Below are positions 49,646 to 52,563 of a stretch of 64,000 nt of DNA, piece after piece. Each line of letters opens with the position of its first letter. Within the stretch, counting starts at the first letter, position 1. The translations under genes were made by a program, and so were the position numbers. The stretch comes from Sporichthya polymorpha DSM 43042 (GTDB taxonomy: Bacteria; Actinomycetota; Actinomycetes; Sporichthyales; Sporichthyaceae), in NCBI RefSeq assembly GCF_000384115.1, contig NZ_KB913029.1:3137057-3201056 (forward strand), in the 5' to 3' direction. Under the pieces are notes generated by a model. The model was not told the origin of the DNA. It ran no database searches and saw only the letters and a program-made list of their open reading frames with translations.

Positions 49646-49707
49646 CGGAACGTCAGAGTCTGGTCCGCCGCGAGGACCGGTGGGCGGCCTGGTTCGGCCC
49701 GGGAGCC

Positions 49708-51444
49708 TCAGACGGCTGGCTCGTCGGGTCCGGGGCGGGGTGCTGGTCGTTCCCCGGGGTCGATCAGGGGTGGGATTTCGACGTCGTAGCTGACCCCGAG
49801 GCGGGTGATCCAGCGGACTCGGTCGTGGCCGAGCCGGATGAGTTGCCACCCGCCTTTGGTCTTGAGGTCGTGGTCGTGCTCGCAGAGCGGGCCGAGGTTC
49901 CCGGCCAGGGTCAGGCCCCCGCGGGCGTGGTCGAGGGTGTGGTCGATCTCGGACCGGGCGGCGGGGAGTCGGCAGCCGGGGGCTTGGCAGGTGGTCATCC
50001 GGAGCTGGGTGTCCCGGCGTAGTTCTTGGCGGGGGAACCGACGCCGGGCGTCGTCCGGGTTTTCCGGGGCGGTCTCGTTCTCGGCGCCGGCGGTGGCGAG
50101 GAGGTGCTGGCGGCCGATCTCGACCAGCACGGACCGCCAGGTGGGGACGTGTTCCCCGGTGACGGTTCCCTCGAGCAGCGCCCGTAGGAGGGTCGCGGGG
50201 ATGAGCAGGTCGACGATGCCGTGGTCGCTGGAGCGGCGCCGGTCCCACCCGTGGGGGCGGGCGGCGACCAGGCCGGAGGAGATGGCGTACCCGGCGGGGT
50301 CGGTGACCGCGAACCGCCACTGCCCGGCCGCCAGTCGGTGGGCAAGGTCGCGGGCGTACTCGGCGTGCACCGGGCCCTGCCCGGCCAGTTCGGCGGGGTC
50401 GCGGTCCAGCCCGAGCAGGGTGGAGACCTTCGCGGTCAGCTGCACCCCGTGGTGCGGCGACCGCGCCACCGGCTCCGGCTCGGGTTGCGGCTCCGGTCGC
50501 GGTTCCGCCTCGGGCTCCGGCTCGGGCTCGCGCACCGGCTCCGGCTCCGCCTCGGGCTCGGGCTCCGTCTCGAACGCGTCGCCCTCGTCGGTCTCGGCCG
50601 TCTCGACCGTCTCGTCCTCGGTGGGGCGGGTGGTGGCGAGGTGGGCGAGGATCTGCTCGTCGGTGAAGTCGGCGTAGGTGCCGTCCAGCAGGTTGAGCGC
50701 GATCTCCGAGCGCAGGTGATCCACCGGCCGGGGGTCACCCGCGCGTTTGGCGTCGTCGGCGAGTTTGCGGACGCGGGCGATGGCGGCGGCGACGCGGGCG
50801 GGGTCCTGGTTCTGCGCGGCGAGGGTGGCGGTGCCGTCCTCGTTGCGCCAGGAGATCACCCGCCGTTCCCGGTGGGCCTCGGTGAACCGGCGTTGGGCCC
50901 AGTCGGGGTCGAGCTGGCTGCCGAGTTTGCGGCACCGCGCGGCGAGCTGCTCACTGGTCCAGGGGCGGTCGGCGTCGATCGAGCAGTGCCCGAGGACCTC
51001 ATCGATCACGGTGTTGGCGTGCTGATCGCTCATGTCCCGGACCCAGAAGTGGATCACCCGGGCCCGTTCGATGCTCAACTCGCCGGCGGCCATCGCGGCA
51101 TGGAGCTTCGGGAACCGGCGCACCACGGCCCAGGCGAAGTCGAGCAGTTCGTTCGCGGTGTAGGCGGAGATGTGCAGGGCAGTGCGGACCTCATCGGCGC
51201 CCCAGCGGTCCGGGGCCGCCAGGCGCACGATCTCGTCCTGCGAATCCAGCCCCCGGGACCCGACCTCCGCCACCATCGCCAACCAAACCGCGTTCGCGGC
51301 GTTCAGCTGTCGTTGGCCGGCCCGCAGCACCCCGACCGACTCGGCCCCGGTCATCGACGCGCGCTCGCCCTCGCTGGGCGCAATGCCCAACGAGACCTGC
51401 CACGCACTCGGCGTGGAAGTGGTGGCTGTCGATGTCCCCGTCAT
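49708..51444 (-). CDS. DUF222 (13E12-repeat type) protein with HNH endonuclease motif
   Basis: 578 residues from the ATG at 51444, which is preceded by a GTG; the frame stays open to 51636 through two in-frame 36-bp repeats, so a longer form is possible. An N-terminal DUF222 helical region (about 40-250) is followed by an acidic Pro/Glu-repeat linker (about 285-330, EPEPEAEPEP-type). The C-terminal HNH motif reads CQAPGC...EIDHTLDHARGG...NLGPLCEHDHDLK. Such genes are multicopy in actinomycetes and are thought to be mobile or defensive nucleases; the role is unproven. Flanked upstream by unusual palindromes. Confidence 0.87.
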   Translation of the reverse strand: MTGTSTATTSTPSAWQVSLGIAPSEGERASMTGAESVGVLRAGQRQLNAANAVWLAMVAEVGSRGLDSQDEIVRLAAPDRWGADEVRTALHISAYTANELLDFAWAVVRRFPKLHAAMAAGELSIERARVIHFWVRDMSDQHANTVIDEVLGHCSIDADRPWTSEQLAARCRKLGSQLDPDWAQRRFTEAHRERRVISWRNEDGTATLAAQNQDPARVAAAIARVRKLADDAKRAGDPRPVDHLRSEIALNLLDGTYADFTDEQILAHLATTRPTEDETVETAETDEGDAFETEPEPEAEPEPVREPEPEPEAEPRPEPQPEPEPVARSPHHGVQLTAKVSTLLGLDRDPAELAGQGPVHAEYARDLAHRLAAGQWRFAVTDPAGYAISSGLVAARPHGWDRRRSSDHGIVDLLIPATLLRALLEGTVTGEHVPTWRSVLVEIGRQHLLATAGAENETAPENPDDARRRFPRQELRRDTQLRMTTCQAPGCRLPAARSEIDHTLDHARGGLTLAGNLGPLCEHDHDLKTKGGWQLIRLGHDRVRWITRLGVSYDVEIPPLIDPGERPAPRPGPDEPAV

Positions 51445-51561
51445 CACTGCTGAACCTAGAGGCCACCACCGACAGTCTGTTTCCGCCGCCCGTCGGGTCT
51501 GCCGCGGCCCGGGAACGTCGGCTGCGCAACGCCTCTGACGCATCATCAGCACCACCGGCAT

Positions 51562-51632
51562 CTGCACAAGAGATGTCATCTCCACTGCAGGGCGTGCCTG
51601 CACAAGAGATGTCATCTCCAGTGCAGGTCGTG
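51562..51632. repeat. Two tandem 36-bp-period repeats containing GAGATGTCATCTC
   Basis: Copies 51562-51596 and 51598-51632 differ at two bases. Each holds the interrupted palindrome GAGATG-T-CATCTC flanked by TGCACAA and TGCAGG. The period keeps the HNH reading frame open, so the repeats would encode a duplicated ALEMTSLVQ-like segment if translated. Confidence 0.75.
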
Positions 51633-51688
51633 TCAAGAAGGGGTGACACCCCTTACTGGGGAGTAAGGGGTGTCACCCTTTCTTGACA
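51631..51688. repeat. 58-nt inverted repeat with 27-bp arms built from a 17-bp palindrome
   Basis: Left arm 51631-51657 and right arm 51662-51688 are complementary except for one base, with loop GGGG. Each arm itself contains AAGGGGTGACACCCCTT or its variant AAGGGGTGTCACCCTTT, so the DNA can fold as one long hairpin or two small ones. TGTCAAGA and TCTTGACA form the ends. It could end transcription of the NlpC gene or be a mobile palindromic element. Confidence 0.8.
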
Positions 51689-51702
51689 GCGGCGACCTCA
51701 AT

Positions 51703-51719
51703 AAGGGGTGACACCCCTT
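51703..51719. repeat. Third copy of AAGGGGTGACACCCCTT
   Basis: An exact 17-bp copy of the palindrome in the 51638-51654 arm, 17 bp before the stop of the NlpC/P60 gene (minus strand). Confidence 0.75.
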
Positions 51720-51736: not shown

Positions 51737-52249
51737 TCAGAGGACGCGGCCGGCGCGCCAGGCGGAGGTCCAGATCTTCTCGAGCTTGACCTTCTGGCCG
51801 GGGCGGGGGGCGTGCCAGATCTGCTTGTCCCCGGCGTAGATGCCGACGTGGTAGACGCGGCCGCCGCGGTGGAAGAAGACGAGGTCGCCGCGGCGGACCT
51901 TGTTCTTCGCGACCTTGTGGGCGCTGGCGAACTGTTGGCGGGAGGTGCGGGGGAGCTTCTCCCCGGCCTTGGCGTAGACGAAGCGGGTGTAGCCGGAGCA
52001 GTCGAAGCCGCGGCGGTTCGTGCCCCCGTAGACGTACGGCGTGCCCTTCAGGCGGCTCGCCGTGTGGATCACGCGGTCGACCTTCTGCAGTCGCAGCGTC
52101 TTGTTCAGGGGGCCGGCCGCGGCGGCCGTGCTGCCGAGGGCGCCGGCGCCGAGGGCGACGACGGCGGCAAGGGTGACCAGGGACAGTGCGGTGGCCAGAA
52201 TTCGGCGGAGGCGGATGCGGGCGTGCGTCATCGCGGGCGGAAGAGTCAT
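51737..52249 (-). CDS. Secreted NlpC/P60 peptidoglycan endopeptidase
   Basis: 170 residues. A signal peptide (about 1-45, LATALSLVTLAAVVALGAGALG then AAAAGP) precedes a single NlpC/P60 domain with catalytic Cys in RRGFDCSGYTRF, His in VYHVGIYAG and the third polar residue in IWHAPRPG. It cleaves D-iGlu-meso-DAP stem-peptide bonds in the wall. Start taken at 52249, with GGGGA nearby; an internal ATG at 52231 is possible. A c-di-AMP riboswitch lies immediately upstream, so expression should follow cell-wall and osmotic status. Confidence 0.92.
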   Translation of the reverse strand: MTLPPAMTHARIRLRRILATALSLVTLAAVVALGAGALGSTAAAAGPLNKTLRLQKVDRVIHTASRLKGTPYVYGGTNRRGFDCSGYTRFVYAKAGEKLPRTSRQQFASAHKVAKNKVRRGDLVFFHRGGRVYHVGIYAGDKQIWHAPRPGQKVKLEKIWTSAWRAGRVL

Positions 52250-52261
52250 GAAGATCCCCAG

Positions 52262-52414
52262 GACCGCCTGCGGAAGGAAACCTGTCGGATTCGGACGCCA
52301 GGGACGCCCGGCCCTCCGCAGAGGGCTTCACCCCGAGGGCGCGAAATCGCGCCCGTGTTGCCGGTTCTCCCGCTCCCGCCGCTCGTCGGTAGTGCGGACC
52401 GCGGGACAGGCGAC
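52262..52414 (-). ncRNA. c-di-AMP riboswitch (ydaO-yuaA type)
   Basis: Read on the minus strand, conserved blocks appear in order: CGCCTG (P1 5' strand, 52412-52407), GGAGCGGGAGAACC, a variable hairpin GGGCGCGATTTCGCGCCC, CGGGGTGAAGCCC, CCGGGCGTCCCTGG, CCGAATCCGACAG and CGCAGGCGG, whose CAGGCG (52270-52265) pairs with the P1 5' strand. The order and core sequences match the ydaO consensus. It ends 13 nt before the NlpC/P60 ATG, next to the ribosome binding site. The family binds c-di-AMP and commonly controls wall hydrolases in actinobacteria. Confidence 0.9.
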
Positions 52415-52563
52415 GGGATTCGGCGTGCACGTCTCGCGGCGGTGCCCGGTGCAGGCACCGAGAAGTCCTATCGGCGCTCCCGGCCCCGGCCTTGACCGTT
52501 CGGCCTCACACGATCGACATTGCCAATCTCACGGCGATCTCACAGGCGATCTCACCGGCACGC

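Follow-up and report, generated by a model that had tools for sequence, protein, structure and literature searches.

Within some 160 bp of the genome of Sporichthya polymorpha DSM 43042, palindromes lie inside larger palindromes beside a DUF222/HNH gene, which raises two questions: what kind of element is this array, and does the neighbouring protein have a part in its presence there? A sequence-only reading of the window (the whole stretch of 64,000 nucleotides analysed) had proposed a mobile extragenic element, perhaps acted on by the HNH protein or its relatives. With a probability of roughly 0.6, our answer is that two lineage-restricted families of REP-like gene-end palindromes, probably terminators, are stacked after the stop codon of an NlpC/P60 gene and followed by a separate, amplified DUF222/HNH unit. 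Below, G000 denotes the organism's own genome (5.5 Mb), G002 a sister species, G001 a third congener, and G003 and G004 other relatives.

An array of palindromes after an NlpC/P60 gene

The array (~160 bp, 51562-51719) is located between the NlpC/P60 stop codon (51737) and the leader of the DUF222/HNH gene, both genes lying on the minus strand. Read from the NlpC/P60 stop, it consists of a 17-bp palindrome, a 58-nt hairpin of two inverted palindromes and two 36-bp units with GAGATGACATCTC, after which the DUF222 leader follows. The features of the locus are:

51737-52249, minus strand: NlpC/P60 hydrolase, the host gene lying upstream of the array and conserved at the corresponding site in G002 (L113); from domain match and ortholog comparison
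51703-51719, no strand: single palindrome AAGGGGTGACACCCCTT, 17 bp from the NlpC/P60 stop; belongs to the family of ~266 sites
51631-51688, no strand: 58-nt hairpin, inverted 17-bp palindromes at 51638-51654 and 51665-51681, flanking arms TGTCAAG/CTTGACA; REPIN-like doublet, from its arms, fold, 65 aligned copies and family location
51598-51633, no strand: 36-bp repeat unit, palindrome TGGAGATGACATCTC on the minus strand, core GAGATGTCATCTC at 51606-51618; from repeat match and genome-wide counts
51562-51597, no strand: second 36-bp repeat unit, core at 51570-51582; from repeat match and genome-wide counts
51530-51549, minus strand: left-end motif CTGATGATGCGTCAGAGGCG, conserved in the DUF222 unit and with CTGACGNNNCGTCAG as its counterpart in other DUF222 families; from copy comparison
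51453-51479, minus strand: conserved leader CAGACTGTCGGTGGTGGCCTCTAGGTT, immediately upstream of the start codon; near-identical among subfamily copies
49708-51444, minus strand: intact DUF222/HNH gene, 578 aa, HNH region ~49846-49989; from domain matches and dN/dS
49668-49707, minus strand: right end of the unit, with the short inverted repeat GGCTCCCGGGSCG... at which the copies cease to be similar; from copy comparison

The building blocks named by the sequence-only reading are all there. Its two tandem repeats with GAGATG-T-CATCTC begin at 51562 and 51598, are 94% identical with a period of 36 bp, and carry one GAGATGTCATCTC each (51570-51582 and 51606-51618). The arms of its hairpin, 27 nt each and 96% complementary, occupy 51631-51657 and 51662-51688 and enclose a loop of 4 nt, and its further palindrome copy is an exact AAGGGGTGACACCCCTT at 51703-51719, which also occurs exactly at 51638-51654 and with 2 mismatches at 51665-51681. 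Since this palindrome has 6 matches in the window as compared with 0.04 in shuffled sequences, and since the RNA strand of the hairpin folds at -54.1 kcal/mol (z = -9.8), chance does not explain the array. The GAGATG copies are weaker in the window, with 4 matches at up to 2 mismatches, a count that 6 of 100 shuffles attain. As the palindrome at 51703 is 17 bp from the NlpC/P60 stop, the array spans the gap from the 3′ end of that gene to the DUF222 leader. Against the hairpin, Rfam returned only eukaryotic and viral microRNA models far under their thresholds. Directly upstream of the NlpC/P60 gene, a c-di-AMP (ydaO/yuaA) riboswitch match (52250-52435, minus strand) stays just below threshold at 37.1 bits (cut-off 38).

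Two palindrome families in two sister species

Neither palindrome is unique to this locus, each having many sites in both G000 and G002. The first, "AAGGGG" or AAGGGGTG, family (AAGGGGTGWCACCCYTT) has ~266 sites in the 5.5 Mb of G000 (reversed control 0), most of them 58-nt hairpins of two inverted palindromes. The second (TGGAGATGNCATCTC) has ~70 sites in G000, and its core GAGATGTCATCTC has 77 exact sites genome-wide (reversed control 0). Among 98 genomes searched with a cross-genome pattern, the first family was counted 182 times in G000, 227 times in G002, once in G001 and 0 to 2 times in the others; among 40 genomes, the second was confined to G000 (71) and G002 (~143). Thus, both are at chance level in G001 and in all other relatives scanned (98 genomes for the first family, 40 for the second). 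The hairpin motif alone was also scanned for in 84,980 species, a set that may lack the own genome and close relatives; it gave 5 scattered single matches, not beyond chance, and viral contigs gave 7 single matches. This distribution shows that copying in the ancestor of the two sister species spread both families, and their near-identity may have been kept by continued copying or gene conversion.

Exact AAGGGGTGWCACCCYTT copies avoid two stretches of G000:C1, at 4.61-0.02 Mb (0.91 Mb) and 2.34-3.04 Mb (0.70 Mb), where diverged copies are present. An abundant counterpart of G001's own was considered and rejected as weak: AGGCGTGWCACGCCT (2 mismatches) gave 38 matches versus 13 in the control, with a pattern that, in G000 and G002, also catches the AGGGG family. 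All three congeners have another dispersed repeat as well, GATCCCGCGGGATGACGTCCCGC...GTCAGCCCGGAGGAGGGCTGAC (left flank of L014 in G000, near 948.7 kb; C14, C27, C63 and others in G002; C124 in G001).

Gene-end position and form of the hairpins

Positional statistics come from an 864-kb sample of G000 processed with a simple gene caller (799 genes, 91% coding), whose tiles were partly picked around known copies, so that density is inflated while orientation should be unaffected. The sample has 38 AAGGGG clusters; 27 have convergent genes on their two sides and 10 have tandem ones, no cluster separates a divergent pair, and 1 falls within a called gene. In the background, 124 of 779 gene pairs are convergent (16% expected; p ~2e-14). 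The gene ends flanking these clusters are 64 3′ ends versus 10 5′ ends, with the stop codon at a median of 22 bp, and the GAGATG family shares the bias in weaker form (34 versus 16; median 19.5 bp). In this sample, the hairpin is found at ~22% of convergent pairs, a share probably too high for the whole genome because of the choice of tiles. With ~266 and 77 sites against none in the controls, and 37 of the 38 clusters outside called genes, the proposal of a dispersed extragenic palindromic element stands.

Doublets make up 22 of the 38 clusters, and the rest are single palindromes or arrays. Among 65 aligned doublets from G000 and G002, a 44-bp core is near-invariant; three show a two-sided A-T/T-A swap at the centre pair, and the outer pairs vary by wobble. 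The foot reads gtcaag, gtggaaaag or variants of these and bears no consistent tag; some hairpin feet are CTGTGGAAAAG. Where G000 and G002 are compared at orthologous sites, both species nearly always have the hairpin, if sometimes in another form, although the spacers flanking it have diverged. G001 usually has nothing at these sites; at three of them (L136, L144, L148) it has another palindrome, AACCATTAGGCGTGACACGCCTAATGGTT or a variant of it, whose centre is likewise GTGWCAC. The hairpin looks like a copied element that has been retained at gene ends.

What might keep it there? The location just past stop codons and between convergent genes is that of an intrinsic bidirectional terminator, and the hairpin at 51631-51688 is probably such a gene-end hairpin. 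The AAGGGGTG family would then be a gene-end element whose doublet folds into a symmetric hairpin of very high stability, A-rich at the foot and T-rich in the tail (AAGAAAGGG...CCCTTTCTT). Being the same on both strands, a single copy could terminate the transcripts of both members of a convergent pair, or shield the 3′ ends of their mRNAs, a putative function that we derive from position and shape. A simple terminator scan did not flag the hairpin (stem -54 kcal/mol, tail TTTCTT), the reason being that C or G breaks up the T-rich tail, which moreover base-pairs with the stem. Furthermore, the core is almost invariant although a plain terminator needs no exact sequence, so that a DNA-binding protein or a recent spread is needed as well. 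Alternatively, the palindromes might be bound by a regulator or a nucleoid protein, each as an odd-length dyad around TGWCA; the exact sequence is kept in 65 hairpins, and the TGWCA centre is common to both families and to the G001 palindrome. Nevertheless, we consider this reading unlikely, as the sites accumulate at gene 3′ ends rather than at promoters, none of them between divergent genes.

In the 5′ flank of L092, and at L165 in G002, an upstream carrier-protein-like ORF seems to enter the hairpin and to stop at its TGA (GGGTGA), so that the repeat may encode its last residues.

A separately amplified DUF222/HNH unit

The 578-aa protein has a clear DUF222 domain (E 7e-13) and an HNH region with a weak profile match (E 0.005) and a PHROG HNH match (E 4e-6). 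No sequence relatives of it were found in the PDB, the AlphaFold model has a mean pLDDT of 62 with the HNH part below 50, and defence-system models gave no match. It belongs to a multi-copy DUF222 family with an HNH motif: G000 has 31 DUF222 matches, and the subfamily of the window gene forms near-identical units of ~2 kb, nine in G000 and six in G002, with a common leader, the left-end motif CTGAYGNNGCGTCAG and the right end GGCTCCCGGG. Purifying selection acts on its proteins (dN/dS 0.22-0.39), which all retain the HNH motif except that of the frameshifted copy L115. In 297 genomes of the class, close relatives were found in this genus only, the best match outside having ~43% identity. The unit, from its CTGAYGNNGCGTCAG left end to its GGCTCCCGGGGCG right end, was amplified in the same two species as the palindromes and directly downstream of them.

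A second DUF222 family in G000 (L031-L041) comprises about ten near-identical copies of 469-486 aa, each of which opens with CTGACGNNNCGTCAGAAA, a short palindrome at which the copies start to resemble one another.

Palindromes next to the units

The sequence-only reading had suggested that the repeats might cluster next to DUF222/HNH genes, and this holds for one amplified subfamily only. First-family palindromes lie upstream of seven of the nine units in G000 and of all six in G002, one per species being only partly preserved; relative to intergenic density, 7/9 corresponds to p ~8e-5, with copies that are not independent of one another. Exact composites of hairpin and GAGATG palindrome number 14 in G000 and G002: 10 are followed by an intact DUF222 gene, three are without DUF222 and one is an empty site. 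The majority of palindromes have no DUF222 gene nearby, and 37 of the 38 sampled hairpin clusters do not adjoin a gene of the subfamily (864 kb). The other DUF222 families of G000 have no AAGGGG palindrome in common, with single GAGATG-like sites near L037 and L044, and the DUF222 genes of G001, G003 and G004 share no palindrome. A general rule that DUF222 genes carry palindromes is thereby ruled out.

How, then, did the association arise? Same-species paralogs are closer to each other (mostly 90-92% in the first third) than the window gene is to L113, its same-site ortholog (86%), and leader types follow the species even at the same site, type A in G002 and mostly type B in G000. Both observations argue for concerted evolution, and show that the copies and their leaders have been homogenised within each species, with gene conversion among the copies; given the shared leaders, palindromes may travel or convert together with the unit. 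Hence, one ancestral unit may have had palindromes ahead of it, and duplication and gene conversion copied the leader along. The species-specific leaders speak for this account, as does the precedent of REP13E12 in M. tuberculosis, where gene conversion has strong hot spots at these DUF222 loci (PMC13061034). That system is likewise multi-copy DUF222/HNH, but here the subfamily is another one and has two palindrome families ahead. The make-up of the array, which varies among copies in its number of GAGATG units (0, 1 or 2) and in extra single palindromes, weighs against such hitch-hiking, as does a unit without any palindrome (L094); we give this account a little less than even odds.

In type B leaders (L091, L092, L095, L096, L098), TTATCCACA lies between the hairpin and the GAGATG palindrome; this is the textbook DnaA-box sequence.

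Comparison of orthologous sites adds a further candidate. G002 has hairpin and GAGATG palindrome without a gene at L165 and L167, where G000 (L092 and L091, respectively) has the unit just after the GAGATG palindrome; at the L091 site, G001 has neither palindromes nor unit. The palindromes might therefore be preferred landing or conversion sites of a unit that arrived second and did not move them, just as REPs are landing sites of some insertion sequences, among them ISPpu9, ISPpu10 and ISRm19 (PMC1525189). Those insertion sequences are reminiscent of the present case as multi-copy gene units beside an extragenic palindrome; here, in contrast, the protein is of the HNH type, the unit lies beside the palindromes and no target duplication is seen. 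Gene loss from an ancestral occupied site would account for L165 and L167 equally well, and palindromes are dispensable for the unit, given a DUF222 gene without them in G001 at the L096/L112 site and their absence from the L098 site in both G002 and G001. We regard the landing-site account as tentative and rather doubtful. Together, the gene-less composites of G002 and the palindrome-less DUF222 gene of G001 indicate that neither palindromes nor unit requires the other.

Relation to known repeat systems and the question of a mover

The repeats are of a known kind. REP and REPIN sequences are short extragenic palindromes, also in inverted doublets, that lie close to the stop codons of genes in convergent or tandem arrangement (PMC3116915, PMC3733652), and the same gene-end position bias has been reported for REPs (PMC3733652). 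The families described here resemble REP/REPIN (BIME) elements in their hundreds of short extragenic copies (~266 sites for the first), hairpin doublets (22 of 38 clusters), single and clustered forms, and proximity to stop codons, but differ in having no RAYT, no GTAG/CGTC foot, an actinobacterial host and a partial association with DUF222/HNH genes. Specifically, the Y1 transposase (RAYT, PF01797) has 0 matches in G000-G004, control genomes being positive, and neither GTAG nor CGTC stands at the hairpin foot in the 65 aligned copies. The repeats are therefore REP-like rather than members of the REP/REPIN-RAYT system, and the enzyme moving them is not a Y1/RAYT transposase. Closest in this respect are CGTC-tagged REPs, which are found at gene ends without a dedicated transposase or known mover (PMC3733652); here CGTC is missing from the hairpin foot and the host phylum is a different one. 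MITEs, in turn, share the 27-bp inverted ends and the lack of coding capacity, but the present element is only 58 nt long, and no partner IS was found in a non-exhaustive search; ordinary MITEs would have an autonomous one, here with TGTCAAGAAAGGGTGACACCCC terminal repeats. Furthermore, ortholog comparisons revealed no clean target-site duplication.

REP-like repeats lacking their usual transposase make a nuclease a suspect, and the HNH protein is a possible mover of the palindromes: it would nick or cut at TGWCA centres, and repair would copy its own unit and the palindromes to new gene ends in a RAYT-like manner. Besides the missing Y1 enzyme, the joint presence of palindromes and amplified subfamily in two species, the 10 composites preceding a gene, the intact HNH motif under purifying selection and the palindromes kept at empty sites are consistent with this. 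Still, the co-occurrence amounts to a single phylogenetic event, and the rarity of the subfamily beside sampled clusters and the palindrome-free DUF222 genes elsewhere, including that at the L096/L112 site of G001, point the other way. If the GAGATG palindrome were the cleavage site, the unit would not disrupt its own site as in homing, for the palindrome is intact both beside the unit and at empty sites. As for the suggestion that the HNH protein acts on the palindromes, a DUF222 gene lacks palindromes at the same site in one species, and palindromes lack the gene at two sites in another; we judge the HNH protein to be a possible but unlikely mover. The fuller version, in which the nuclease takes the role of RAYT, recognises TGWCA-centred palindromes, spreads REPIN-like hairpins to 3′ ends and copies its own gene by break-induced gene conversion, appears more improbable still.

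What is new about these two REP-like gene-end families stacked ahead of an amplified unit, then, is that they lack the transposase, are restricted to two species and have a partial tie with DUF222/HNH genes, which are common yet uncharacterised in actinobacteria. With the hairpin at about one in five sampled convergent gene pairs, both species seem to have adopted a copied repeat as a standard signal for gene ends. Moreover, a REPIN-like population without RAYT, present in two sister species and absent from a congener, makes the mover of transposase-less REPs and the role of DUF222/HNH genes testable.
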